The position numbers and the translations under genes are program-made. From assembly GCA_030644725.1 (NCBI GenBank), contig CP130629.1:3611501-3675500 (forward strand): 64,000 nucleotides of DNA, written 5' to 3'. Below are positions 17,131 through 58,495 of the stretch, piece after piece (the stretch's first letter is position 1; every line of letters starts with the position of its first letter). Origin of the DNA: Candidatus Electrothrix communis (GTDB lineage: Bacteria; Desulfobacterota; Desulfobulbia; Desulfobulbales; Desulfobulbaceae). A model generated the notes under the pieces. It saw nothing but the letters and a program-made list of their open reading frames with translations, was not told the origin of the DNA and made no database searches.

Positions 17131-17206
17131 TGCATACCCGTACAATAAGGCTGAAACCTCATTTTTTCGGGAGAAATACCTGGATGTCGGGCGGGGGATG
17201 AAGAAA
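17131..17206 (-). promoter_or_regulatory. conserved TonB-receptor upstream module, copy A (weaker copy A2 at 17249-17290)
   Basis: Read on the plus strand it has CCCGTACAATAAGG, then CCTCATTTTTTCGGG, then ATACCTG and GATGTCGGGCGGG. The same order of blocks recurs at 34964, 55561, 55848 and 58433, each upstream of another TonB receptor. On the minus strand the Cs and Gs can form a short hairpin around the AAAT. A second, weaker match (AGCTTTTTTAGGCGGGCG, then GCCC) follows at 17249-17290. The rest of the 630-bp gap upstream of receptor 1 holds only the small frame at 17409-17504. No 27-bp palindrome like that of copies B, C and E is seen here. Confidence 0.6.
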
Positions 17207-28775: not shown

Positions 28776-30785
28776 TTAGTAATCCCAGCGCAAGGTAGCA
28801 AAGAAGCCGCGTCCCGGCATGGGATACCCTTTAACATAGGCGTAGTCTTCATCAAGGAGGTTGTTGATCTCGCCCCGCAGGGTGAAGGAACCCAGTCGTT
28901 CAGCTTCATAAAACCGCCAGGAAGCAGTCAGGTCGGTCACCGTGCTTGCGTCCAGCTCAACCACCGGGGTCGGAGAGGCCCCTGATTCCCAGTCCTCCAC
29001 ATCCTGAGTGCCCGCATAGGCAACATTGAGGCGGCAGGAGATTCCGTCGCCGTTGCTGACCATCAGTCCGGCAGATATATTCGCCCCGTTGACATCCTGG
29101 AGGTTTTCGTCCGTGCTCTCATCCTCATATTGGGTCAGGAGGGTCATGTTGAAATAGGGACGCATTTCCCAGGGCCAGTCCATGCGCATGCCCAGATCAT
29201 AAGAGAACTCACCCTCAACACCGGAAATTGTGGCATCACCGAGATTTTTCCAGGTCTTGGACCCGTCCGCCTGATAATCAGTAATGATTTTGTCCTCGAA
29301 ATCCGTATGAAAATAGGTAAGTCCCATCCTGAAGCTGTTGCGGCTGTAGTCCAGTCCGCCCTCATAGGTAGAGCTTGTTTCCGGATCAAGATTAGGATTA
29401 CCCACAGTGCGGGTGCCGAAGCGGTCAAAATCCGCAGCTAACTGATCCGCCGAGGGGATCATAAAGCCTTGGGCATACTGGGCCCGCAGCTTGAGCTGTT
29501 CCGTGACCAGCCAGGAGAGGCCGATTTTGGGGGTGAAATGATCCGTATCGGTGTTTCGACCTGCCGGTTCCACAACCTCGACCTCGTACCAATCATAGCG
29601 CAGACCGATATCAACGGTCAGGCGTTGCTCAGGAAAGGTTGTTTTACCGAGGAGAAAGACTGCGGGATTGGTATAGCTGGTTGTATTGGGGGTCCAGGTA
29701 TTTTCCACCTCGTAATCAAGCCAGTCAATACCGCCGGTGAGTCGGGTCTGTCCGAAGGTGCCGGTGAGCTGGGCCTGGGCACCCTGCTGATCGGTTGTGT
29801 TGGAGGAGGCAATGCCGTTATCCCAGCCGCTCGGGTCGGAAGCGGTGGGATCCAGCCAGGAATTCTCATCCCTGCCAAAGAACCAGCGGGTCATCCATTG
29901 CCAGCGATCCGAGCTGGTTGCGCCTGTATAGTTGAGATCAACGGAATAGTTTTCCTTGTCTGTGCTGTCATCCAGATCATTGGCGCTGAAATAGCCGGGG
30001 CTGCCGTAGTTGTCCAGTTGGGAGCCGGTGAAGACCAGACCGAGGCGGTTCTTGTCAGAAAACGACCAGCCCAGATTTGCACTGACGCCGGATGCGGCAT
30101 CAAAACCGGTGTTGCCGAACTCGTCACCGCTCCCGGTTTCATAGGCATCTCGGGAGGATCGGCTGTAGGAACCTGCGAAATCAAGCTTGCCCTCCTTCAG
30201 GGTGCCGCCCACGCTGGTTGCATAGGCCCCGAAAGACCCGCTGCCCGCTTCAACAAAGGCAGTCGTGCGTTCCGCCTTGCGGGTGATAACATTGACCACC
30301 CCGCCCATTCCGGCTGAACCGTACTGCACGGCTCCAGCCCCGCGAACGATTTCGATTCGCTCCACATTCCCGGTGAGCAGCTTGGCTACATTGCCGGTCC
30401 CGGCCCGGCGACCGTCCAGCAGGATCAGGACATGGCCCTGAAGATCATTGCCGTGCGAATCTGTGCGAAAACCACGAATCCCGATGGAGGTCAGCCCGCC
30501 GGGATATTTATGCAGATGACCGATGGCTTTCTCGGTCAGCAGATCACCCACATTGCTAGCCCCGGATTGTTCAATTTCTTCCCGGTCAATGACCGTGACA
30601 TTGGCGCTGACCTCTTTTTTACTCTCCGATGTGCGGGCGGCGGTGACCACTACTTCGTCCATCATGACCGCCTGTCCATCTCCCGAATCCCCAGGAGAAT
30701 CTGCGGCGGAATCTGCGGCAAAACCTGTTTGTCCTGTACACAGGGTCAGCAGCAGGCAGACTGAAACGGAATAACACTTTCTCAT
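28776..30785 (-). CDS. btuB: BtuB-type TonB-dependent receptor under cobalamin riboswitch
   Basis: A 669-residue outer-membrane receptor with a signal peptide (about 1-23) and TonB box MDEVVVTAA. The plug domain has SNVGDLLTEKAIGHLHKYPGGLTSIGIRGF and AVQYGSAGMGGVVNVITR, and the barrel ends LRWDY. The ATG at 30785 is chosen for its AAAGAGGAAAGG site and family start; an upstream extension reads through the riboswitch terminator. A cobalamin aptamer and attenuator lie upstream, so it is almost certainly a cobalamin or corrinoid importer that is switched off when cobalamin is plentiful. No btuCD is adjacent. Confidence 0.92.
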   Translation of the reverse strand: MRKCYSVSVCLLLTLCTGQTGFAADSAADSPGDSGDGQAVMMDEVVVTAARTSESKKEVSANVTVIDREEIEQSGASNVGDLLTEKAIGHLHKYPGGLTSIGIRGFRTDSHGNDLQGHVLILLDGRRAGTGNVAKLLTGNVERIEIVRGAGAVQYGSAGMGGVVNVITRKAERTTAFVEAGSGSFGAYATSVGGTLKEGKLDFAGSYSRSSRDAYETGSGDEFGNTGFDAASGVSANLGWSFSDKNRLGLVFTGSQLDNYGSPGYFSANDLDDSTDKENYSVDLNYTGATSSDRWQWMTRWFFGRDENSWLDPTASDPSGWDNGIASSNTTDQQGAQAQLTGTFGQTRLTGGIDWLDYEVENTWTPNTTSYTNPAVFLLGKTTFPEQRLTVDIGLRYDWYEVEVVEPAGRNTDTDHFTPKIGLSWLVTEQLKLRAQYAQGFMIPSADQLAADFDRFGTRTVGNPNLDPETSSTYEGGLDYSRNSFRMGLTYFHTDFEDKIITDYQADGSKTWKNLGDATISGVEGEFSYDLGMRMDWPWEMRPYFNMTLLTQYEDESTDENLQDVNGANISAGLMVSNGDGISCRLNVAYAGTQDVEDWESGASPTPVVELDASTVTDLTASWRFYEAERLGSFTLRGEINNLLDEDYAYVKGYPMPGRGFFATLRWDY

Positions 30786-30834
30786 AACCTTTCCTCTTTG
30801 TGTTGTTTGTCCAGGGAAAGGCCCTGTAAAGAGC

Positions 30835-30874
30835 AAAAAAAATCCCCGGACCAATGATATATTGATCCGGGGAT
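30835..30874 (-). terminator. riboswitch-controlled intrinsic terminator
   Basis: On the minus strand ATCCCCGGA pairs with TCCGGGGAT over a 15-nt loop and is followed by eight Ts. It sits between the cobalamin aptamer and the btuB start codon, so ligand binding probably terminates transcription here. Confidence 0.85.
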
Positions 30875-30980
30875 GCCCTTGTTTTCCACGAATAATTCTG
30901 CGCATCTCTCTCCCTTGTCCACGGGGAGCGAGGCGTTCCTGGCATGCTTTTTCTCTGGCACGGCAGGTTAATACATTTCA

Positions 30981-31134
30981 GACAGGTCTTCTGACTCCCG
31001 GATTATCCTCTTGCTGCGCCTTCCCACATGAATCATGCAGTGGCTTTATGCAGCATTTGTCCCCGGTTACAGCGGCGGGCCCGTCCCGGATTTACACCGG
31101 GTTCCCTCTTATGCTCGGTTAGGAGCATCTGAAA
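30981..31134 (-). promoter_or_regulatory. cobalamin riboswitch aptamer
   Basis: Reading the minus strand, the hallmarks appear in order: GGGAACCCGGTGTAAATCCG, then CCCGCCGCTGTAACCGGG, the GCCACTG block, GGGAAGG, and finally the B12-box region AGTCAGAAGACCTGTC. Spacing fits the cobalamin class. It precedes the btuB-type receptor and its attenuator. Confidence 0.95.
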
Positions 31135-31321
31135 TGCGGGGCAAGCCTAACTGAAAAAAAACAAAAGGTCAAGTTGTTGGTTGGTCCGTCCCGAGGTCGC
31201 TGCTTGACACGGTTCGATTTTCTGCCGTCTACGACTGGATTGTACAGGGAGGATTTTGCTGTTTTTTTTGTTAACGGCTTCGGTGAGCTAAAAGGGTGCG
31301 CTCTGTTACCACATCATCCAC

Positions 31322-34963: not shown

Positions 34964-35013
34964 GCCTGGACAATAAGGTGAAGGGCTCATTTATCTGGGA
35001 ATTTTATTGGGGG
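34964..35013 (-). promoter_or_regulatory. conserved TonB-receptor upstream module, copy F (weaker copy G at 35188-35233)
   Basis: Plus-strand CCTGGACAATAAGG, GCTCATTTATCTGGGAATTT and GGGGGAC follow the same order as the copies at 17131, 55561 and 55848. It lies about 160 bp upstream of receptor 3. Copy G has GGCAGTAGCCTTATTTTTCG followed by GGCA. The remainder of the gap 34805-35521 holds nothing else I can support. Confidence 0.5.
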
Positions 35014-48281: not shown

Positions 48282-48887
48282 TTAGCACGACAGCTCGTTC
48301 ATAGTAACGGTGGTATGACAGACACGCTTGAGCAGCTCCCGGTTATGACTGATAACCAGCATACCGAGCTGTTCCTGCTTCACCGTTTCCAGCAGCACCT
48401 GCCAGACCTGGGCCTGACTGATCGCATCCAGCATGGCCGTGATCTCATCGGCAATGAGAAAGGCGGTCTGCGGGCTCAGGGCACGGGCAATGGCCAGTCG
48501 TTGGAGCTCGCCACCGGAAAGCTCATGGGGGTATCTGTTCAGCCAAGGCATTTTTATACCGAGTTCGGCAAGGAGTTGTTTTTTCGGCTCAGAGGATTCA
48601 GCTAGGGACCGCTCCAAGATCCAGCGAGGATTGAAGCTCTGCTCCGGGTGCTGATTGATCAGCTGAACCGGCAGGAAGCTCTTGTGAGCAATCGGGTTTC
48701 GATTCACCCGAATCTGTCCAGACTGGGCAGGCAGATGGCCGCAGAGCACCTTGGCCAAGGTGGTTTTGCCTGAGCCGCTGGGCGCGATGAGTCCGGTCAC
48801 TTGGCCGGGGCTGAGGCTGATATTGAGATCGTTAAAAACAGGCGTGCCGCCGTTATAGGCAAAGCGCAGTTGGGTGGCTTCAAACAT
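48282..48887 (-). CDS. ABC transporter ATPase (NikE/OppF type)
   Basis: A 201-residue ATP-binding subunit. Walker A APSGSGKT lies near residue 37, the signature LSGGELQRLAIARAL near 130, and Walker B FLIADEITAMLDA near 150. It is shorter than NikE/OppF (about 260) and lacks the C-terminal oligopeptide-type extension. The ATG at 48887 overlaps the preceding ATPase gene by 8 bp. It is the last gene of the receptor-ABC operon starting at 55339. Confidence 0.88.
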   Translation of the reverse strand: MFEATQLRFAYNGGTPVFNDLNISLSPGQVTGLIAPSGSGKTTLAKVLCGHLPAQSGQIRVNRNPIAHKSFLPVQLINQHPEQSFNPRWILERSLAESSEPKKQLLAELGIKMPWLNRYPHELSGGELQRLAIARALSPQTAFLIADEITAMLDAISQAQVWQVLLETVKQEQLGMLVISHNRELLKRVCHTTVTMNELSC

Positions 48888-49695
48888 GGGTTTCTTTTCG
48901 GCTGAATCGAATATTGTTTTCTGCGGACAGGAAATCGTTTTCTGGCAGGGCCTGATACAGGGCAAGGCTGTACGGGGAGGAACAGAGGCCTTGACGGAAT
49001 TTTTCCGCAGGCATGGTTTCCATCAGGGTACCGTCTTTCAGGATTGTGACATCGTCGGCAAAAGGCAGTGCCCCGCTGAGATCATGACTGATGAGCAGGA
49101 TGGCCCGGCCTTCATCGGCCAGCTGGCGGAGATGGGTAAAGACCTGGCGGCAGTTGTCCTCGTCCAGGCCGGTGGTGGGTTCATCGGCCAGCAGGAGTTT
49201 GGCCCGGCCTACGGTTGCGCAGGCCAGCAGGACTCGACTGGCCATGCCGCCGGAGAGCTCAAAAGGGTAGAGGCGGAAGACATCTCGGCTGAGTCCGTAG
49301 CGAGTAAAGACGGCCTCAGTCTGTTTGTCAGCCTGCCTCCTGGACAGACCAGCCAAGCGGGCAGCCCGTTGCACCTGTTTGCCCACCCGCTGGAGCGGGT
49401 CCAGCCCTTCCGCTGATTGGGGAATCAAGGCTATCTCTCTTCCCCGGAGCGGAGCCGGGTCTGCGTATTCTTCCCCCTTGAAGCGGATGCTTCCTCGGCA
49501 GGTACTATTGGCAGGCAAGAGACCGAGGATGGCCGTCAGCAGGAGGCTCTTGCCCGCGCCGCTGGCTCCGGCCACCAGATTAATCGAGCCGGGGCGGACC
49601 AGAAGCGAGACCCCATTCAGTCCGTTGATCTGTTGGCGATGCAGGCCGTGCTCATAACGGCTGAACGAGATGTGCAGATTGTCTATTGTTAACAC
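48880..49695 (-). CDS. ABC transporter ATPase (NikD/OppD type)
   Basis: A 271-residue ATP-binding subunit with Walker A GASGAGKS near residue 46, LSGGMASRVLLACA, Walker B KLLLADEPTTGLDE and the H-loop LLISHDLSGAL. A GTG at 49695 with AAGGA seven bases upstream is preferred. The ATG at 49719 overlaps the end of a REP repeat and lacks a site. It powers the two permeases encoded just upstream. Confidence 0.88.
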   Translation of the reverse strand: MLTIDNLHISFSRYEHGLHRQQINGLNGVSLLVRPGSINLVAGASGAGKSLLLTAILGLLPANSTCRGSIRFKGEEYADPAPLRGREIALIPQSAEGLDPLQRVGKQVQRAARLAGLSRRQADKQTEAVFTRYGLSRDVFRLYPFELSGGMASRVLLACATVGRAKLLLADEPTTGLDEDNCRQVFTHLRQLADEGRAILLISHDLSGALPFADDVTILKDGTLMETMPAEKFRQGLCSSPYSLALYQALPENDFLSAENNIRFSRKETHV

Positions 49696-49719
49696 GATAT
49701 ATTCCTTGATTATCAGCAT

Positions 49720-49790
49720 GTAGGGGCAGACCTGCGTGTCTGCCCTTTTATGCGTTTTATGTGTAAGGGCGGTTCGCGAACCGCCCCTAC
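49720..49790. repeat. REP-like palindromic repeat, family 1, copy c
   Basis: GTAGGGGCAGACCTGC opens the element, and a hairpin GGGCGGTTCGCGAACCGCCC with flanking GTA and CTAC closes it. It fills the gap between the NikC-type permease gene and the ATPase gene, inside an otherwise tightly overlapping operon. Confidence 0.8.
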
Positions 49791-49792
49791 GG

Positions 49793-50611
49793 TTATCCCT
49801 GACTTGTGCGCGGTTGCAGGAGAACGCGCATGTTCTCGCCCATGATATCAAAGGCCTTGACCATAGCCAGCAGGGCTGCTCCGGGCAGGACAGCCAGCCA
49901 CCAATGACCGGTGGAAAGATGGCGCATGGCCTCAGCCAGGATGATACCCACAGCCGGTTCATGGGGGGAAAGTCCAAGGCCGACAAAGGTCAGGCCTGCC
50001 TCATGGAGGATGGCGTGCGGGAAGAGCAGCAATAACCCGACAAAGAACTGCGGCACCATATGCGGCATAATATGTTGGCGACCGATCTGCCAAGGGGTTT
50101 TGCCGAAGCAGCGGGCATGGTGAATGAACTGGCTCTCTTTGAGTTGTAAGGTCTCTGCTCGAATGATCCGGGCCAGCCTCGGCCAATGACTGATAGCCAC
50201 AGCAATGGTGACTCCTTTCAGGCCTCCGCCAAAGGCAAAGGAAATCAGGATAAGGAGCACCAGATGGGGCAGAGTGATAAAGATATCAATGAGCCAGGAA
50301 ATTATCCCGTCCACCCAACCGCCTAGGGTCCCGGCGGCAATTCCGAGGAACAGGGCCAGCAGGGCACTGGCCGCCGCCGCCATAAGGCCGGTCTGGAGGC
50401 TGAGACGCAGCCCGGCAATGGTGCGCAGAAACATGTTGCGGCCCATCCAGTCAGTGCCGAAAAGATAGCTGAATCCAGGAGGCTGATTGCGTAGGGCAAG
50501 ATCGGTGTTTAGGGTTTCAGGGACAAAAAAATGATGCGCAACAATAATGGCCAGGAGGAAGGTGGCGCAACCACCGGCTGTTACCAAGGCGCGGGTTCTT
50601 TGATGTATCAT
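49793..50611 (-). CDS. ABC transporter permease (NikC/OppC type)
   Basis: A 272-residue inner-membrane permease with six predicted helices, an N-terminal HPFG-like start (NTDLALRNQPPGFSYLFGTDWMGRN), and the EAA loop ARCFGKTPWQIGRQHIMPHMV. It forms the channel with the NikB-type protein and overlaps that gene by 4 bp. The start fits the family. Confidence 0.9.
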   Translation of the reverse strand: MIHQRTRALVTAGGCATFLLAIIVAHHFFVPETLNTDLALRNQPPGFSYLFGTDWMGRNMFLRTIAGLRLSLQTGLMAAAASALLALFLGIAAGTLGGWVDGIISWLIDIFITLPHLVLLILISFAFGGGLKGVTIAVAISHWPRLARIIRAETLQLKESQFIHHARCFGKTPWQIGRQHIMPHMVPQFFVGLLLLFPHAILHEAGLTFVGLGLSPHEPAVGIILAEAMRHLSTGHWWLAVLPGAALLAMVKAFDIMGENMRVLLQPRTSQG

Positions 50612-51585
50612 GATGTGGTGGCCTTTCTCATTCGAGGATCAATAACGGTGTACAAGAGGTCAGCCACAGTGTTGCCGAAAAAGACAAATAGAGCGCTGAC
50701 CAAGACAATACCTAAGAGGAGAGGGATATCTCCGCCCAATCCGGCCTTGATGGTGGCTTGGCCCAGGCCGGGATAGGAAAAAACCTGTTCGGCCAGGATG
50801 GAGCCGCCAAAGAGTTCACCGAAGGTGGCGAATTGAATCGTCAGGGCGGGCAGCAGGGTATGGCGCAGGGCGTGGCGACGGAAGACACCCCAGGTGGATT
50901 CGCCTTTGGCCCGAGCAAAGAGGACAAAATCACTGTTCAGTACCTCAAGCAGTTTTTGCCGGGTGTGCAGAGTGACTGCGGCCACTGAGATGATGCTCAG
51001 GGTGGCGGCGGGCAGGAGCAGGTGGCGGAGCCACTGCCCTATGCTCACATCGGAAGGGTTCATTCCGGGCGGATAGGCGCAGCAGACCGGGGTCCAGCCT
51101 AACTGCACGGAGAAGATAATAACCAGCAGCATGCCCAGCCAAAAGGTCGGGGTGGAGGCCAAGGTATAGGCGTAGAGACGGATGAGTCGGTCGTAGATTG
51201 AGTTTTCTTTCAACCCGGCAATGATTCCGAGGATAAAGCCGATGACCCCGGAAAGCAGCCAAGCTGCCCCCATCAGAGCCAAAGAAGGGAGAAAGCGGCG
51301 AGCGATCACCTTGGTCACCGGTTCCTGAAAGATAAGGGAGCGGCCCATATTGCCGGAAAGGATCTCTTTCTGCCAATGCAGGTAGCGCATCAGCGGCGGC
51401 TGATCAAGACCCCATCGCTCGGCGATCTGCTGGCGTTGTTCCTGACTCATCTGGAGCATGTCCGCCCCTATATAGGCCTGTACCGGATCAATAGGGGAAA
51501 ACTGAAGCAGGGCAAAGGACAGCATGGCCACAGCAGGCAGAATCAGAATCAGCTGGATCAGTTTTTTTCGAAGAAAGAATTTCAT
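50608..51585 (-). CDS. ABC transporter permease (NikB/OppB type)
   Basis: A 325-residue permease. The family start (RKKLIQLILILPAVAMLSFALLQFSPIDPVQAY), about six membrane helices and the EAA-type loop RAKGESTWGVFRRHALRHTLLP are present. It ends with the typical LLYTVIDPRMR. It overlaps the binding-protein gene by 4 bp. Substrate class nickel or oligopeptide; nickel or a metallophore complex is more likely given the receptor in the same operon. Confidence 0.92.
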   Translation of the reverse strand: MKFFLRKKLIQLILILPAVAMLSFALLQFSPIDPVQAYIGADMLQMSQEQRQQIAERWGLDQPPLMRYLHWQKEILSGNMGRSLIFQEPVTKVIARRFLPSLALMGAAWLLSGVIGFILGIIAGLKENSIYDRLIRLYAYTLASTPTFWLGMLLVIIFSVQLGWTPVCCAYPPGMNPSDVSIGQWLRHLLLPAATLSIISVAAVTLHTRQKLLEVLNSDFVLFARAKGESTWGVFRRHALRHTLLPALTIQFATFGELFGGSILAEQVFSYPGLGQATIKAGLGGDIPLLLGIVLVSALFVFFGNTVADLLYTVIDPRMRKATTS

Positions 51586-53246
51586 GGTTTTCCCTGTCCC
51601 CCCTGCCCGTTCTGCTCTTCCTTCCAGTGCCAGTCAACAATGTTTGCGGTAATCGGCCAGCCGTGGCCGTGGGGCTCTACTCTGATCGTGCCGATATCAA
51701 GGCCTTGGTCCACCAGATAGGTATGATCCAGGTTGACCAGCCAGGCCCAGGGGGCATCACCCAGAGCGGAAACGCCGGTGCTGCCGTCCCATTGGGCGGC
51801 TCGCCAGAATTTTGTTGCCTCTTCATCGGTAGCTGCGGCCAGGGCCTGATCCAGATAGGCATCCACTGCGGGGTTGTTGTACAGGCCCGGATTGAAATAT
51901 CCCTGCCCGGAGACTCGGCTGTGAAAAAGATGATAGAGTTCGGTCGGATCATAGCTGCCCCAACCGAAGAGCACGGCCTGGGAGTGCTGGACTTTTCTGA
52001 TTTCATCCCAGCTCTTGCCGGACAGCTTCAGGCGGATTCCCAGAGGAGCCACCATATCAGCCACGGCCAGGGCCAGGGATTGGCGGATCAGTCGGTCAGC
52101 GGGGTACAGGAGGGTGAACTCTGCTACCACCCCTTCCTTGTCCAGAAGACCGTCCTGATCGTGGTCCTCCCAACCTGCTTCGTGCAGCAGGGCAGCGGCT
52201 TTTTTCAGGTTATTATCTTTGATCCTGGTTGCCTTTTCTTCCCAGTCCAGATGACTGACCGAGCCATAGGCCGGGGTACCGAAGCCGTTCAGCACGCCCT
52301 CCACCAGGGCCTGGCGATCTATGGCATAGTTGATCGCCTGACGGATAGCTGGATCAGCCGTGACGTCATTGCCCACTGGCAATCCGTTCAACTCTTCATG
52401 TCCCGCCTTCTGACAGGGAAACATGATGCCTCGGTTGTCCACGCTGGTTGCCCGGACGAGGCGCATCCCCTCCACGGCTTTATCAGCCAGGATCTGGGGC
52501 ACAGCTGCCACCTGGACAGTACCTGCCTTAGCAGCGGCAAAGGCTGTATCCGAATCAAGGAAGAGAAAGGCCAGCCGCTTGATGGCGGGCTTTTTGCCGT
52601 AGTACAGCGGATTGGCCTCGACAATGAGCTGCTGTCCTTCGTCCCAGCGCACCATTTTATACGGGCCCGAGCCGATAGGATGTCGCCCGTAATCTCTGTC
52701 GTGAGCGTGTTTCGGCACAATGCCTAGGGTTCGTAGATAATGGATAAAGGTGGATCGCGGCGTTGAGAGGTGAAAAGAAACACTGTGTTCCCCTGTAACC
52801 TTTGCCTGATTCATAAAACTCAGATCAACCAGCCCGCCGGAATCCTTGGCTGTGTTGAAGGTATAGGCCACATCCTCGGCAGTGAGCGGGGTGCCGTCGG
52901 AAAAGAGGGCATCTAGCCTGATATCTACATTCCAGGTGAGTCGATCCTCGCTGACGGAATAGGAGGTGGCCAGATCATGCTCCATTTCCAAGGCATCATT
53001 ATAGCGGAGCAGGGTGGACTGAAAGAGCGGCGAACCGTAGCGTCCCCAGCCCATAGTCGGGTCATAGCCCTGTTCTTCCTCACCGCCGATGGCAAGTACC
53101 AGGGTATCGGTTGTCCGACTTGGTGAAATGACGGCATGTTGGTGCTGAGTCTCGTTTTTCTGCTGTGGCTGCGATTGATCACAGCTGATCAGGAGGAGCA
53201 GGAATAGGATGCCTGCTAACGGTTTTGCTGTACGGAATATCAACAT
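51582..53246 (-). CDS. ABC transporter substrate-binding lipoprotein (NikA/OppA family)
   Basis: A 554-residue family-5 extracellular solute-binding protein. The lipobox LISC with Cys22 predicts a lipoprotein anchored to the membrane. TLVLAIGGEEEQGYDPTMGWG and GTPLTAEDVAYTFN mark the family, and IGSGPYKMVRWDEGQQLIVEAN is typical. NikA-like proteins bind nickel as a small-chelator complex. The ATG overlaps the receptor stop (ATGA), so the receptor and importer are one coupled operon. Confidence 0.92.
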   Translation of the reverse strand: MLIFRTAKPLAGILFLLLLISCDQSQPQQKNETQHQHAVISPSRTTDTLVLAIGGEEEQGYDPTMGWGRYGSPLFQSTLLRYNDALEMEHDLATSYSVSEDRLTWNVDIRLDALFSDGTPLTAEDVAYTFNTAKDSGGLVDLSFMNQAKVTGEHSVSFHLSTPRSTFIHYLRTLGIVPKHAHDRDYGRHPIGSGPYKMVRWDEGQQLIVEANPLYYGKKPAIKRLAFLFLDSDTAFAAAKAGTVQVAAVPQILADKAVEGMRLVRATSVDNRGIMFPCQKAGHEELNGLPVGNDVTADPAIRQAINYAIDRQALVEGVLNGFGTPAYGSVSHLDWEEKATRIKDNNLKKAAALLHEAGWEDHDQDGLLDKEGVVAEFTLLYPADRLIRQSLALAVADMVAPLGIRLKLSGKSWDEIRKVQHSQAVLFGWGSYDPTELYHLFHSRVSGQGYFNPGLYNNPAVDAYLDQALAAATDEEATKFWRAAQWDGSTGVSALGDAPWAWLVNLDHTYLVDQGLDIGTIRVEPHGHGWPITANIVDWHWKEEQNGQGGQGKP

Positions 53247-55339
53247 CAGTTCGATCCTTTATGTCTGTAGCTCAGTGTCAGGCCGATATAGCGACCGTCA
53301 CTGCCTGCGTATTGATTGTCTGGTACGCCGTAGGGATCGTCCCAGTAACCGACGTATTCGGAATAGCTTTCGTCCAGGAGATTTTTGATGTTCAGGGCCA
53401 GCTCCCAGTCATCGCCGATTTCCTGCGCTACCTGCATATCCACAACCTCGTAGCCGGGATAGGAGTGCAAATTATCAGCTGTGGTGTACCAGCTCCCTGT
53501 ATCCCGGTACCACAGGCTCAAAGAGGTACCTTGGTCAAAGCGGTATTCACCGCCGATTTTAAAGATGTACTCAGGAATGGAGGGCACCTCTTTGCCCTGA
53601 TTTTCTCCGCCCTCGTAGGTGGCTTCGTGGTATGTCCAGGAGGAGAAAAGCTGGAGACCGGGCAGAGGAGACAGGCTGAATTCAAGCTCATGCCCGTTCC
53701 GCTCTGTGTCGCCTTCATTGATGTATTCCCCGGAAATCCAGCGGATGGTGTCTTCAACGCTGTGAAAATAGGCGTAGCGGAGCAGCAAACGCTCCCACTC
53801 GGCCTTAGTGCCAATTTCCCAATGGAAAAGGCTGGTTTCATTCGGTGAATTAACTTGATATTTATCGCTGCCCTGGGGCAGCTGGAAGCCGGTGCCGGTA
53901 TTGGCGTACAGACTGTAATGCTCCAAAAAAGAATAGATGGCTCCGCCGCTGGTTGTCCAGATATCGTAGTCCCGCATATCCCTAGCTGCGTCGGTTGTAT
54001 TGTCGGTGTTTTCGCCGCTGAAGAGATCGTAGCGGCCTCCGGCAAAGAGCCGCAGGGAGGCAAAGGGATCGTAGTTTATCTTTGCATACAGGCCGAAGTC
54101 GTTGAGGTCGTAGTCGTTATCGCTGGTTAACTCAGTCCGATGGCGGTAGGTGGTGTTAAACTTCTGCTCTAGGGTGCTGAAGGAACGCCAATCAAAGCCG
54201 GTATCAAAACGGAATAATCCGGTATCGCCTGCATCAAGGTCGTAGCCGAGATTGGCCAAGGCACCAAGAATAAGGTGCTCGTAATGACTTTCTGTCTGGC
54301 CGCCGCCCCAGTCAGCCCAGCGGCTGTAATTTTCATCCACCACCCAGGCCTTGAACTCCAGGGGCATGGCCTTGCTGATATCCCAATCCAGATGAAGCTG
54401 GGCCTCGGAAAGATCCTTCCAGCCGCCGTCATCCTCCTGGATGGACTGCTTGGGGTTCTGTGTCCAGAGGTATTCAGGCAAATATCCGGCTGTATGCCAG
54501 TCCGCATCATAGGTGTGGAGGACCAATCCGGTTTTGAGATCGTCAGTGAAATGATAGAACCATTTGCCGTAGAAATTCTGCCGGTCATAGGCTGCGTTGT
54601 CCTGATAGCCGTCCGTATCGAAATACTCCAGCGAATAGACCTGATTGAATTTGCCGTCCAGGTGTTCGCTGCCCAGCGAGACATAGCCCTTGCGGGTATT
54701 GAAGCTGCCGTACTCGGCTTTGGCGTGGCTGAAATTTCCTTGGTTGCGGGTGTGAAAATGGATTACTCCGGCCCGGTTCCAGTTGGCGTAGCGGGCATCA
54801 ATCGGCCCCTTGACCACCTCAACCCCGACTATATCATCGGCAATGAGCTGATTGAGGTCAATGGCCCCGTCCGCACTGCCCATGTGGTAGTTGTAGGGAA
54901 TGCCGTCAATGGTTACCGCAGTATGGTTGCCGTGGCTATCGTTGCCAAAACCGCGCAGAGTGAAGCCGTTGGGCACACCTCCAGAGTTGTAATCGCCGAT
55001 GGTGATGCCGGGCACATTGCGTAAGACATCAAGAGCTGTTTTATTGTTCTGTCTGGCGACCTCTTCTTCGCTCACCACGTCAATCGAGCCGGGAAGATCT
55101 ACCGCAGGGGTATCTTGTTCCCCTGTGACCAGGATTTCGCCCATCGTCATAATAGTACTGGCAGGTTGACGAAGGCTCAGCTGTTTTTCAGAGGGAACCT
55201 TGATATTTGTGTTTCCTGTACTCTCTTCGGGGGAGGCCGCACTGTCTGTAGCAGCGCAGGGAGAGGCAGCAGCAAAGGCGACCAAGGTAAACAGTATTTC
55301 TTTTGCGTAGTTTTTGCGCATAGTTCCTGGATTAATCAA
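53246..55339 (-). CDS. TonB-dependent receptor 4, first gene of nik/opp-type operon
   Basis: A 697-residue outer-membrane receptor. A signal peptide (about 1-30) is followed by a TonB box MGEILVTGEQD near residue 66, the plug (TALDVLRNVPGITIGDYNSGGVPNGFTLRGFG), VVKGPIDARYANWNRAGVIHFHT, and a barrel ending LTLSYRHKGSN. The last residue is not aromatic, unusual for a receptor. Its stop overlaps the binding-protein start. A promoter duplication with two module/operator units lies upstream. Confidence 0.93.
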   Translation of the reverse strand: MINPGTMRKNYAKEILFTLVAFAAASPCAATDSAASPEESTGNTNIKVPSEKQLSLRQPASTIMTMGEILVTGEQDTPAVDLPGSIDVVSEEEVARQNNKTALDVLRNVPGITIGDYNSGGVPNGFTLRGFGNDSHGNHTAVTIDGIPYNYHMGSADGAIDLNQLIADDIVGVEVVKGPIDARYANWNRAGVIHFHTRNQGNFSHAKAEYGSFNTRKGYVSLGSEHLDGKFNQVYSLEYFDTDGYQDNAAYDRQNFYGKWFYHFTDDLKTGLVLHTYDADWHTAGYLPEYLWTQNPKQSIQEDDGGWKDLSEAQLHLDWDISKAMPLEFKAWVVDENYSRWADWGGGQTESHYEHLILGALANLGYDLDAGDTGLFRFDTGFDWRSFSTLEQKFNTTYRHRTELTSDNDYDLNDFGLYAKINYDPFASLRLFAGGRYDLFSGENTDNTTDAARDMRDYDIWTTSGGAIYSFLEHYSLYANTGTGFQLPQGSDKYQVNSPNETSLFHWEIGTKAEWERLLLRYAYFHSVEDTIRWISGEYINEGDTERNGHELEFSLSPLPGLQLFSSWTYHEATYEGGENQGKEVPSIPEYIFKIGGEYRFDQGTSLSLWYRDTGSWYTTADNLHSYPGYEVVDMQVAQEIGDDWELALNIKNLLDESYSEYVGYWDDPYGVPDNQYAGSDGRYIGLTLSYRHKGSN

Positions 55340-55450: not shown

Positions 55451-55626
55451 GGAGGGAACCACCATTTTGTTCAGCAGGGCAGGAGTCACTCATTTTTTTA
55501 CTACTGACGCAGCTTGAATAATACAATTTTAAATTTTGTATTATCTTTACCACAGTCTCAGCTGCCCGCACAATAAGGTAGGAAGCTCATTTTTTCGGGC
55601 GGAATGCCCGGAGGGCGGGTCCAAAA
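55451..55626 (-). promoter_or_regulatory. upstream module copy B with 27-bp palindromic operator (55518-55544)
   Basis: The module at 55561-55620 reads on the plus strand GCCCGCACAATAAGG, AGCTCATTTTTTCGGGCGG and AATGCCCGG. Sixteen bp nearer the gene lies a perfect palindrome, ATAATACAA-N9-TTGTATTAT, at 55518-55544. On the minus strand TTGTGC in the module and TAAAGA 18 bp later could be -35/-10, so the palindrome would cover the start of transcription. The whole unit resembles 55740-55906. Confidence 0.65.
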
Positions 55627-55739
55627 TGACGCTATCTGAAAAAACGGCGGCCGCAGAAGAAGAAGATGGAAAAAACTGCGACCACCGCCAAGGAGAGGTT
55701 ATTGAGATACTTCTAAGTTTCGTTGCCCTTTTATATAAA

Positions 55740-55906
55740 GTTGGTGAAGGGAACCTTAAGCCGGACAGGAGTTCCACATTTTTTTATTCCTGACGCAGCT
55801 AAGATAACACGATCAATAATTTCGTATTATCTTTACCACATTTTTAGCTGCCCGCACAATAAGGCAGGGAGCTTATTTTTTCGGGTGGAATGCCCAGGGA
55901 GCGGGT
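55740..55906 (-). promoter_or_regulatory. upstream module copy C with 27-bp palindromic operator (55804-55830)
   Basis: Second unit of the duplication: module at 55848-55906 (GCCCGCACAATAAGG, AGCTTATTTTTTCGGGTGG, AATGCCCAG) and operator ATAACACGA-N9-TCGTATTAT at 55804-55830, with 17 bp between them. The flank GTTGGTGAAGGGAACC matches GTTGGTGGAGGGAACC at 55451. Confidence 0.65.
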
Positions 55907-55997
55907 AGAAGGGCCTATGGAGAATATCGACTACTTCCTAGGCTGCTTATAAAAAGGATGATTATTAACTGTGAGCTGGGACGGTGGGCCTGAAAGC

Positions 55998-56044
55998 CCA
56001 GGGTTGAAACCCTGGACTATGTTCAGTGCGTCCCTCTGGGACGG
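55998..56044. repeat. two-hairpin palindromic repeat, family 2, copy b
   Basis: CCCAGGGTTGAAACCCTGG and GCGTCCCTCTGGGACGG form two hairpins. It is the inverse-orientation relative of 48232-48276 and lies between the two TonB receptor genes. Confidence 0.7.
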
Positions 56045-56080
56045 TCTTCCTTCCGTGTCCCGGACTGATCTCATAATCAG

Positions 56081-56113
56081 CTGCCCGCACAATGAGGCGG
56101 GCAGCTCATTTTA
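56081..56113. promoter_or_regulatory. module-related hairpin (copy D) at the 3' end of receptor 5
   Basis: CTGCCCGC-ACAATGAG-GCGGGCAG is a perfect 8-bp hairpin directly after the receptor 5 stop codon, followed by CTCATTTTATC. Its sequence overlaps the first half of copies B and C. It may act as a terminator for receptor 5. Confidence 0.5.
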
Positions 56114-58324
56114 TCAGTAGGTAACAGAGAGAGTCAACATGGCGGAAAAAGGAGCACCGGGGTAAAAGGTGGCCTTTCCGTCCCTGGTGTCATCATAGCC
56201 ATTGATGCTTGATATGTATTCCTTATCAAAAAGGTTGTTCAATTCAAAAGAGCATTTGACCGCCTCAGCTCCCCAGAGTTCAGAAAAGGTGTAACTCATA
56301 CGCAGATCAACAAGAGCGGCTCCATCAACTTCGTTTTTGTGTTCCAGATCAGCATACCGGTTGCCGAGATAGCGCAGCATGGGCACGATCTCAAAATTTC
56401 CAGGATGATAGATAAATCCTGTTTTCAATAACCATTCTGGAGTGTCCACTACCTGATTCCCTTCGGATTCCAGCCTTTTTCCCGCATAGGTCAAATCGTT
56501 GTCATAGGTCATTGAGGTGTAGGTGGGGTTGAAAAAAAGGCTGAGATCATCGCTCAGGTAGGCATTCATTTCCAGATCAACCCCATAACTTGTTACCTCG
56601 CCCACATACTGAGAGTAGTTCAAATTCACCCTGGGATCGTAGATTGTGGTGACCAAATTGCTATGGGCGCTATAAAAAAAGGTCGGTGCGATGTCAAACC
56701 AGTCGCCTATATAGCGGATGCCGAAATCAACTGTATGCGACTCTTCGATATCATAGCCGTCAAAGAGATCTTGCAGGTCAATTCCCTGTGCCTGAAAAAT
56801 ACTTCGGTTCGCACTGTAAAGATTCACCAGCGGCATGTAGGAATAAGGCCGAATAAAGGTTCTGCCGTATCCTGCCCGCATTTCCAGGGCATCGTTGAGT
56901 TGTAACGATGCAGCGAGGGTGGGCAGCAGGATATCGTATTCCGATGCCTCTCGATCTAAATCCGGGGTTCGCAACAAGGCGTAATCCGGTCCTGGGCCGC
57001 TGATGTATCCCTGACTGTCAGCTTCTTTGAAATGAAAGTATTTCAGCCCTGCTTGCCAGTTGAACATACCGTGGCTGCCAGCCAATTTCACATAGGGGCT
57101 GTTGATATAGGAGGTGCCTCCGCTTGCCATTCTGCCATAGCCTCGATATGCGAAGTCTGAGCCGACCGAAGCGTAGTTCTGACTGTAAATGTGCATGTCC
57201 ACAGCTTCAAAATGATACCCCAGCGAGGTGTTGAGGGATGGCGTTTCCCAAACAGCCTCACTGATCAGCCCAGTGCGTTTTATATCCCGAATCCTCTTCC
57301 GGATGCTGGATTTTGAAGCACCCTCCAGAATTTCCGCATCCTCCTTGGAATAATAAGGTTTTACTGTAAAAAGCAGGGAGTCTGCAACCTGCATTTTCAG
57401 CACGGCGAGTACGTCATCATTTTGGTATTCGCCCCGGTTATAGTCGTAATAATTGACATCCTCGGCAGGATTCCCCGTGAGAGTTGCATTATAATCTTTG
57501 TCATAATTCGCTTCGAGATTTTGAATGTCAGCGGAAGTCAAACGTCGATAAAGATGCTGTTCCAGGTCATTATGATTATACCAAATTTTAATATCAGCCT
57601 TTTCTCCCAGAGGCTGGCTCAGGGCCAGATTGGCATTCAGTCGAGGGCCGAGTTCACCGGTCCCGCGCCATTTATCCGCTCCGCTGTACGAAAAGGAACC
57701 GGAAACTTTGCTGTTCACTTCAGGCAGGGTACCCGGATCAACCCGAAGAAAGGTGCGGGTGTATGCATTCGTTCCGACGCTCTGTTTAAAGGAAAATCCG
57801 AAATCCTCATGGGGCCAGTCAGGTTTGAGCTGCAAGCTGCCGCCCCGTGAACCCACGCCTGTGCCGATGTCTCCGGGCATTGCGCCCTTATACATGGAAA
57901 TGCTTTCCATGTTTTCCATGTCATAGAGATAATCACGGGGGCCGATGGGATTACCGCCGTAGTTGGGCACGCCTTCCACAGTGAGCGCACCAAGAGCGCT
58001 TTTTACCCCGCGCACCCGGACAGTGCCCATCTCCGCACCCAGTCCGTTGCTGTCCGCACTTTCCACGTTAATGCCCGGCAACATATCCAAGGCACCGTAA
58101 ACGCTGGTGGTTGCCTTTACCCCCTGAATCTCAATTCCTTTGGCCGTGATTTCGCTGCCGGTGTAGACCGTCTCACTGGCCTGCATGGTCGGGGTAATCA
58201 ACTTTTCCCCTGACACCAAAACCTCTGGCATTTCTTTTTCTTCCGCTCCCGCATTTCCTTGGGTAAGGAGAGCTGCTGCGGTCAGACTGATCAATATTTT
58301 TCTTTTGTACATTGTACGCTGCAT
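56114..58324 (-). CDS. TonB-dependent receptor 5
   Basis: A 736-residue receptor. The signal peptide spans about 1-27 (LTQGNAGAEE) and a TonB box MPEVLVSGEK lies near residue 32. The plug has SVYGALDMLPGINVESADSNGLGAEMG and ESISMYKGAMPGDIGTGVGSRGGSLQL, and the barrel ends LSVTY. Met5 at 58312 is an alternative start; neither has a strong site. The gene stands alone between the nik-type operon and the protease, but shares the module and operator with receptor 4. Confidence 0.92.
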   Translation of the reverse strand: MQRTMYKRKILISLTAAALLTQGNAGAEEKEMPEVLVSGEKLITPTMQASETVYTGSEITAKGIEIQGVKATTSVYGALDMLPGINVESADSNGLGAEMGTVRVRGVKSALGALTVEGVPNYGGNPIGPRDYLYDMENMESISMYKGAMPGDIGTGVGSRGGSLQLKPDWPHEDFGFSFKQSVGTNAYTRTFLRVDPGTLPEVNSKVSGSFSYSGADKWRGTGELGPRLNANLALSQPLGEKADIKIWYNHNDLEQHLYRRLTSADIQNLEANYDKDYNATLTGNPAEDVNYYDYNRGEYQNDDVLAVLKMQVADSLLFTVKPYYSKEDAEILEGASKSSIRKRIRDIKRTGLISEAVWETPSLNTSLGYHFEAVDMHIYSQNYASVGSDFAYRGYGRMASGGTSYINSPYVKLAGSHGMFNWQAGLKYFHFKEADSQGYISGPGPDYALLRTPDLDREASEYDILLPTLAASLQLNDALEMRAGYGRTFIRPYSYMPLVNLYSANRSIFQAQGIDLQDLFDGYDIEESHTVDFGIRYIGDWFDIAPTFFYSAHSNLVTTIYDPRVNLNYSQYVGEVTSYGVDLEMNAYLSDDLSLFFNPTYTSMTYDNDLTYAGKRLESEGNQVVDTPEWLLKTGFIYHPGNFEIVPMLRYLGNRYADLEHKNEVDGAALVDLRMSYTFSELWGAEAVKCSFELNNLFDKEYISSINGYDDTRDGKATFYPGAPFSAMLTLSVTY

Positions 58325-58346
58325 AAGCTTTTTTTTGTTATATGAC

Positions 58347-58381
58347 TGAAACCACTACCGACTTCAGTCGTAGTGGTTTCA
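58347..58381. promoter_or_regulatory. 12-bp inverted repeat between operator and receptor 5 start
   Basis: TGAAACCACTAC and GTAGTGGTTTCA are perfect arms around an 11-nt centre, immediately upstream of the receptor 5 start codon. In the minus-strand transcript this would be a strong stem close to the ribosome-binding region; it could also be a protein site. Confidence 0.5.
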
Positions 58382-58390
58382 ATTTCGATG

Positions 58391-58417
58391 GTAATACAAA
58401 AATGAAATTCGTGTTAC
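58391..58417 (-). promoter_or_regulatory. 27-bp palindromic operator upstream of receptor 5 (copy E)
   Basis: GTAATACAA-N9-TCGTGTTAC has the same 9-9-9 geometry as the operators at 55518 and 55804. The conserved module copy E lies 15 bp further upstream. Confidence 0.65.
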
Positions 58418-58432
58418 CAATTAAGCATATCC

Positions 58433-58495
58433 AACCTGCCCTTGCAATAGGCCCACCGCCTCATTTTACCGGGCCGAATACCTATATGATGTCGG
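58433..58495 (-). promoter_or_regulatory. conserved TonB-receptor upstream module, copy E
   Basis: Plus-strand blocks GCAATAGGCC, CCTCATTTTACCGGGCC, GAATACCTA and GATGTCGGG align with copy A at 17131 and more loosely with B and C. Confidence 0.55.

Follow-up and report, generated by a model that had tools for sequence, protein, structure and literature searches.

Predicted NikR operators of reversed half-site order upstream of two TonB-dependent receptors and a Nik/Opp-type transporter in the cable bacterium Candidatus Electrothrix communis

Cable bacteria conduct current through fibres with a nickel cofactor. Earlier candidates for the uptake of this nickel came from homology only (Hiralal et al. 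2024, PMC11247825). A stretch of 64,000 nucleotides from the Candidatus Electrothrix communis genome (contig CP130629.1, positions 3,611,501 to 3,675,500, forward strand; hereafter the window) raises the question of regulation. Three 27-bp palindromes precede the genes of two TonB-dependent receptors, here called receptors 4 and 5, the first of which heads an operon with an ATP-binding cassette (ABC) importer of the Nik/Opp type; which protein reads them? The palindromes are most probably operators of the regulator NikR, with half-sites in reversed order 13 bp apart (N13), through which the receptor-4/Nik-Opp operon and receptor 5 would be subject to nickel-responsive repression.

All three palindromes reported in an earlier note on this DNA, at 55518, 55804 and 58391, are present and fit RTAAYACRA-N9-TYGTRTTAY without a mismatch (Table 1). 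Their restriction to receptors 4 and 5, also claimed there, is true inside the window: no other match with up to three mismatches was found (100 dinucleotide shuffles averaged 0.44 and gave no more than 2), and a search of the window for all four half-site orders at N13 returned no further pair with 0-1 mismatch beyond re-readings of the same palindromes. The whole-genome scan proposed in the note (4,845,585 bases, single contig) again gave these three sites alone at 0-1 mismatch, spanning 2.9 kb, the next-best match being a single site with 2 mismatches. At up to three mismatches the genome contains 33 matches versus 41 for the pattern read backwards, so only near-exact matches are informative. 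A three-mismatch match at 602497, about 1 kb from nikR, was rejected as a candidate, its surroundings being A/T-rich and its mismatch class at control level. The operators 55518 and 55804 are located in a 151-bp tandem duplication with 81% identity and are therefore not independent, which leaves two independent cases instead of three. The two sites differ at seven positions, three of them in the arms, and all three arm differences are compatible with the consensus.

Read as RTAAYAC-N13-GTRTTAY, each of the three palindromes consists of the half-sites RTAAYAC and GTRTTAY at a spacing of 13 bp. Half-site and spacing are those of the NikR signal predicted for most deltaproteobacteria, GTGTTAC-[N13/14]-GTAACAC (Rodionov et al. 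2004, PMC545781), a resemblance that the earlier note had rightly pointed out. It had also named the opposite half-site order, which is right for the canonical order of most species, from which the window receptors deviate, but the exactly reversed form, GTAACAC-[N13]-GTGTTAC, was also predicted: in Desulfotalea psychrophila at nikMLKQO and at a second, unnamed cluster. For nikK of D. vulgaris the prediction is a similar sequence that departs little from this form (PMC545781). The Desulfotalea sites share half-sites, spacing and order with those of the window, and one target there likewise has two sites in a row. They differ in their location, which here is at TonB receptors and a Nik/Opp operon, and in the inner symmetry RA/TY that all three window copies add. 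The genome encodes a single NikR (C1:601264-601491, E 3.4e-33), found in the search for nikR that the note had suggested; it passes two NCBIfam NikR equivalog cut-offs, lies below that of TIGR02793 and aligns over nearly its full length with solved NikR structures.

The question of half-site order can be followed at the nikM operons, the main predicted NikR targets of the group (PMC545781). Sixty-three nikM/cbiM upstream regions of the family were used out of 68 matches; five were left out (G035 and G065:C391, two pieces each, and G067, at a contig edge). In 35 of the 63, two half-sites with no more than one mismatch in total lie 13 bp apart, and any other spacing between 5 and 25 bp occurs in at most five. 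The exact N13 pairs comprise 11 in canonical, five in tandem, three in reversed (G022, G023 and G033) and two in reversed tandem order; shuffle controls for the half-site-pair counts preserve single-base content only. Since all four orders occur at the same spacing, order is no argument against NikR, and together with the reversed prediction for Desulfotalea this removes the reason for which the earlier note had refrained from assigning the regulator. Canonical order was found at nikM of several genera. Within genus g7, at a near-identical position, three genomes (G022, G023 and G033) carry the reversed and two (G029 and G034) the tandem arrangement, as if the left half-site had been flipped in place. 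Of 36 loci, 22 yielded NikR N-termini by pattern-based extraction, the other 14, including all five of Campylobacterota, standing outside the alignment; the 21 extracted from the family share ML(K/R/L)RFS(V/I)S, across genomes with canonical (G010, G011, G013, G045), reversed (G033) and tandem-like (the window genome, G000, and G059) nikM sites. The ribbon-helix-helix dimer is itself two-fold symmetric, which makes it plausible that a NikR dimer reads its half-site in either direction. A tandem NikR site of Geobacter uraniireducens has reportedly been described by Benanti and Chivers. Over the eight Electrothrix genomes, exact tandem-order N13 pairs were at chance level (four versus five in the control), one copy in the window genome lying inside a coding frame, and were rejected as candidates.

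In a survey of 73 family genomes, with the pattern read backwards as control, 13 genomes contain a total of 24 matches to the 27-bp pattern at 0-1 mismatch, versus two in the control, and 17 genomes contain 28 copies of the exact core RTAAYAC-N13-GTRTTAY, versus five. Sixteen of the 24 pattern sites, including the three of the window, precede nickel-, TonB- or binding-protein uptake genes. One lies 51 bp before the start of a true nikABCDE operon whose NikA and NikB score above the curated cut-offs (G045). Two are found in G052, before a NikA-like binding protein and before a cluster of TonB receptor, DUF4198 and nicotianamine-synthase-like (NAS) genes. TonB receptors follow in G005, G010, G059 (two sites), G063 and G064 (here behind a short exported protein), and Nik/Opp operons in G059 and G063 (the first frame being shorter in G063). 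Of the remaining two, the site in G058 precedes an FmdE gene with receptor 5 behind it, and that in G060 a Peripla_BP_2 gene adjoining a TonB receptor. By the same standards, and with weaker links included, 22 of the 28 core sites have a target, among them nikR-nikM (G052), a broken nikR (G044) and nikM at about 70 bp (G022, G023, G033, judged from coordinates beside nikM). Among the 257 genomes searched in the order, three encode receptor 4 at E values up to 1e-100, two besides that of the window, and all three copies have upstream sites, that of G063 with one mismatch in the core. For near-exact sites, neither genome nor family thus showed the motif at unrelated genes at the rate of chance, the outcome by which the note would have abandoned it. 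A functionless remnant of a mobile repeat or a local duplication, as the position of two of the three window copies in a tandem duplication might suggest, is hardly credible, as the sites recur in 13 of the 73 genomes before differing genes and, in the two genomes that have receptor 4 apart from the Nik/Opp operon (G059 and G063), accompany each of them.

NAS-like gene pairs (PF03059) are present in five of the 73 genomes (G044:C245, G052, G059, G060 and G063), all five of which contain a site of the 27-bp pattern; in G052 the pair (L133:14042-14935) belongs to the cluster behind the site. No PF03059 gene was found in the window genome. The gene pairs suggest that some cable bacteria make a nickel chelator of the nicotianamine or opine type. 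FmdE-domain proteins (L129:5001-6194, L139:3233-4360 and L038:8205-8735) adjoin sites or receptor-5 homologues in Electrothrix and Sulfurospirillum; a search for literature linking FmdE with TonB-dependent receptors and nickel found none.

The half-sites might instead belong to another metal regulator, of the Zur/Fur type or some other repressor, and resemble those of NikR by coincidence. A canonical-order N13 site is conserved in all eight Electrothrix genomes (ten sites versus two in the control; G000:C1:3819073-3819099, locus L248, in the window genome) and precedes, in the three of the eight inspected, a membrane-type protein of 220 aa (a 241-aa frame in one) and a ZnuA/MntC-like binding protein. 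In the window genome the latter matches zinc/manganese binding proteins (AztC and MntC, below cut-off). This site is a candidate for a further NikR target or for the sign of another regulator, and sites of this kind may serve zinc or manganese; nickel as the substrate of the window receptors is itself a prediction. Against coincidence stand the recurrence of the same half-sites and spacing at the 35 nikM/cbiM promoters, at true nikABCDE and before nikR, and their identity with the predicted NikR signal of the group (PMC545781), which make another regulator improbable.

On the minus strand, receptor 4 is followed directly by Nik/Opp-type genes for a solute-binding protein, a pair of permeases and a pair of ATPases. 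A PDB comparison of the solute-binding protein gave as its two best relatives the putative solute-binding protein 3ry3 and the nickel-binding YpYntA (4ofl, E 8.5e-139). The transporter is assigned to the Nik/Opp type, and its function as a nickel importer is predicted from the similarity to YntA. A Nik/Opp/Dpp importer with an upstream TonB receptor was proposed for cable bacteria by homology and phylogeny (Hiralal et al. 2024, PMC11247825); the genes are probably those at 48282-55339 of the window, as judged by content and order and not by accession. Receptor 5 is 94% identical to its counterpart in Candidatus Electrothrix aarhusensis. In this species a TonB receptor with a double tetrapyrrole methylase gene behind it (L140:3987-5747) lies 1.7 kb from a site. 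NikR might bind while receptors 4 and 5 carry another cargo co-regulated with nickel, such as cobalt, a corrinoid or a mixed-metal opine. In the PDB, receptor 4 is related to receptors of the siderophore type, FhuA being its best match; in relatives, sites occur ahead of FmdE-domain genes and close to a TonB receptor accompanied by a tetrapyrrole methylase gene; and predicted NikR regulons elsewhere include non-transport genes (hydAB in D. desulfuricans; PMC545781). On the other hand, the binding protein encoded in one operon with receptor 4 closely resembles nickel-binding YpYntA, and receptor 5, matched over residues 563-711 only, has the metal-pseudopaline receptor CntO as its nearest PDB relative, with FoxA about equal. 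A non-nickel cargo is thus unlikely, if less so than a different regulator.

The position of the operators relative to the promoter is consistent with repression. A conserved module with the inner dyad AATGAG-N8-CTTATT aligns without gaps in 27 copies, 13 of which carry a site, a fraction biased by the loci having mostly been fetched for holding sites. In these 13, the consensus at columns 65-70 is an extended -10-like TGGTAA, preceded at 18 bp by a -35-like TTGTNN within the module, and the operator starts at columns 70-74 in 12 and at column 81 in the other. The distance of 15-17 bp downstream of the module given in the earlier note holds in gene (minus) direction; it depends on the chosen module end, the operators beginning 21-22 columns past the last invariant module base. 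A scan for consensus promoters did not list these module promoters. The operator would overlie the presumed start site, just past the -10 box, so that a bound repressor would block RNA polymerase. Two-sided changes occur in none of the seven predicted pairs of the inner dyad among the 27 copies, a possible further 5' stem being uncounted; in the absence of covariation an RNA structure was rejected and the module is read as DNA. A gap-free element CCC-n4-AAATGAG-N8-CYTATTG-n4-GGC lies ahead of many Electrothrix metal-uptake genes and also at receptor 5 of Electronema; it was not found in the remaining loci examined, the search covering the loci gathered for the other comparisons. It looks like the DNA dyad and -35 region of a shared promoter.

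Perfect or near-perfect arms of 9 bp around a 9-base loop would also permit the palindromes to act as RNA hairpins, attenuators or terminators, and not as DNA operators. The same half-sites at nikM, however, also occur as direct repeats of the same spacing, which are unable to pair in this way; the arms are rich in A and T, the gene strand has no T-run behind them and a terminator scan did not return these sites. The chance that they work as hairpins appears minimal. An Rfam search of the window (E up to 0.1) found no RNA family across the operators; it matched a cobalamin riboswitch (30964-31147) and two Acido-Lenti-1 below the gathering score. The riboswitch lies upstream of another TonB receptor (28776-30905). 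A strong inverted repeat, GAAACCACTAC...GTAGTGGTTTC (58348-58380), stands between the receptor-5 operator and the start codon, in the presumed leader.

Outside the genus, receptor-5 homologues from Campylobacterota are 51-53% identical. Of the five loci, three come from closely related Sulfurospirillum and are not independent. Within the 160 bp upstream of the gene, an N13 pair at 0-1 mismatch is present in four of the five; of 300 Markov controls, 288 gave no such locus and 12 gave one. NikR is encoded in all five genomes. L041, the most distant of the twelve receptor-5 loci, has neither an N13 pair nor NikR. The Helicobacter-type pattern TATWATT-N11-AATWATA was tried at the receptor-5 homologues and rejected, its one near match (L040, one mismatch) coinciding with an N13 pair and the others being weaker.

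Several observations weigh against an assignment to NikR or narrow its basis. Four receptor-5 homologues, from Electronema aureum and two metagenome-assembled genomes (L034-L036) and from Imhoffiella (L037), lack an N13 pair at the level of 0-1 mismatch despite NikR in their genomes, and count against a universal rule. The nikM site of the window genome, GTGTTAC-N13-ATATTAC, of which similar versions occur in seven of the eight Electrothrix genomes directly after a TTGACA promoter-like box, has one mismatch and may be read equally as tandem or canonical, and nikM of G060 has no recognisable half-site pair. Four of the 24 pattern sites have a weaker link, to FmdE-domain genes (G059, G063) or to methyltransferase/ExbB regions (G044, G052; the methyltransferase of G044 was assigned by visual comparison with the scanned one of G052). 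Another four have no fitting target (G007, G013, G058 at a contig edge, and an ABC gene in G060), as have six of the 28 core sites (G004 and, inside a frame, G025, both judged from short loci; G049; one each in G058, G059 and G060). G059 and G063 are near-duplicates at these loci, and genomes that share a genus do not count as independent cases. NikR is so common in the family (60 of 73 genomes) that its co-occurrence alone proves little. The four NikA/B/C/D-like window proteins scanned are all below the curated NCBIfam cut-offs for nickel equivalogs, and in the window the location of the sites at nickel uptake genes is given by similarity (Nik/Opp operon, YntA-like binding protein). The Desulfotalea sites used for comparison are themselves predictions, as are the operators of the window.

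Table 1 Features of the window and related loci, with coordinates in the window unless a locus is named
Feature	Coordinates	Strand	Basis or remark
NikR-type operator, gene-proximal, upstream of receptor 4	55518..55544	-	0 mismatches; reversed-order N13 pair, cf. predicted Desulfotalea NikR sites
NikR-type operator, gene-distal, within duplicated promoter region	55804..55830	-	0 mismatches; inside 151-bp duplication
NikR-type operator, upstream of receptor 5	58391..58417	-	0 mismatches; N13 pairs also at receptor-5 loci of 2 other Electrothrix genomes and 4/5 Campylobacterota loci
Duplicated promoter region, copy A (module and operator)	55470..55620		repeat search
Duplicated promoter region, copy B (module and operator)	55756..55906		repeat search, 81% to copy A
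Conserved promoter module (dyad AATGAG-N8-CTTATT), proximal copy	55562..55616	-	alignment and column conservation; promoter presumed
-35-like TTGTGC	55568-55573		proximal module copy
Extended -10-like TGGTAA	55547-55552		proximal module copy
Conserved promoter module, distal copy	55848..55902	-	alignment
Conserved promoter module, receptor 5	58436..58490	-	alignment
Module element in window	17142-17164, 34970-34992, 55570-55592, 55848-55902, 56089-56111, 58444-58466	-	
Module element in other loci	L128-L132, L139-L143, L035, L036		
TonB-dependent receptor 4	53246..55339	-	open frame from TTG, likely ATG start 55321; Pfam Plug and TonB_dep_Rec
NikA/Opp-type solute-binding protein	51582..53246	-	SBP_bac_5
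NikB/OppB-type permease	50608..51585	-	NCBIfam Opp2B nickel permease best, below cut-off
NikC/OppC-type permease	49793..50611	-	NCBIfam Opp2C best, below cut-off
NikD-type ATPase (open frame exceeds gene)	48880..49986	-	TIGR02770 best, below cut-off
Second transporter ATPase	48282..48965	-	ABC_tran
TonB-dependent receptor 5	56114..58324	-	Pfam

With sufficient cytoplasmic nickel, the predicted Ni-NikR tetramer would bind with each of its two ribbon-helix-helix dimers on one half-site and cover the DNA directly after the -10 box, blocking transcription of two targets: the operon of receptor 4 and the Nik/Opp-type ABC importer, and the gene of TonB receptor 5. Under nickel shortage receptors and importer would be made and nickel imported, probably as a chelate.

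The operator of E. coli NikR, GTATGA-N16-TCATAC (PMC7055735), likewise precedes a nickel importer and has its two half-sites spaced by about two turns of the helix, but differs in the letters of the half-sites and in its length (28 versus 27 bp). In Helicobacter pylori the TonB receptors FecA3 and FrpB4 are controlled by NikR (PMC7055735, PMC11247825), and the idea of NikR control of outer-membrane nickel uptake is shared with our case; according to Hiralal et al. 2024 (PMC11247825), the receptors of cable bacteria are unrelated to those known for nickel. The available text of that study contains no operator analysis and names NikR in three reference titles only, and that of another paper on cable bacteria (PMC11976967) lists a nickel-responsive regulator among nickel-binding proteins and contains neither 'NikR' nor 'operator'. 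Our search found no published operator or NikR analysis and no regulatory evidence for nickel uptake in cable bacteria. The type of site and its order, as a prediction, and the NikR control of TonB receptors in Helicobacter were thus already known, and what may be new is that four orders are tolerated while the spacing stays fixed, and that the operator is combined with a module which, among the loci examined, was seen only in cable bacteria.

A broader reading, possible but held tentatively, is that NikR of this family reads its half-sites irrespective of orientation at 13 bp, so that operators may flip freely, and that cable bacteria have fitted the operator to their own promoter module. The result would be a regulon dedicated to nickel acquisition, in which several TonB receptors are joined by Nik/Opp importers and, depending on the species, by NAS-like metallophore genes, and which supplies the nickel of the fibres. 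The occurrence of four orders at one spacing bears on how a symmetric ribbon-helix-helix dimer reads a half-site. For cable bacteria, a predicted NikR operator at the receptors is evidence for a role in nickel uptake that is independent of homology, and it names further candidates, namely receptor 5, the FmdE genes and the NAS pairs. The sites point to a nickel-controlled route that would feed the nickel-containing wires of these organisms.

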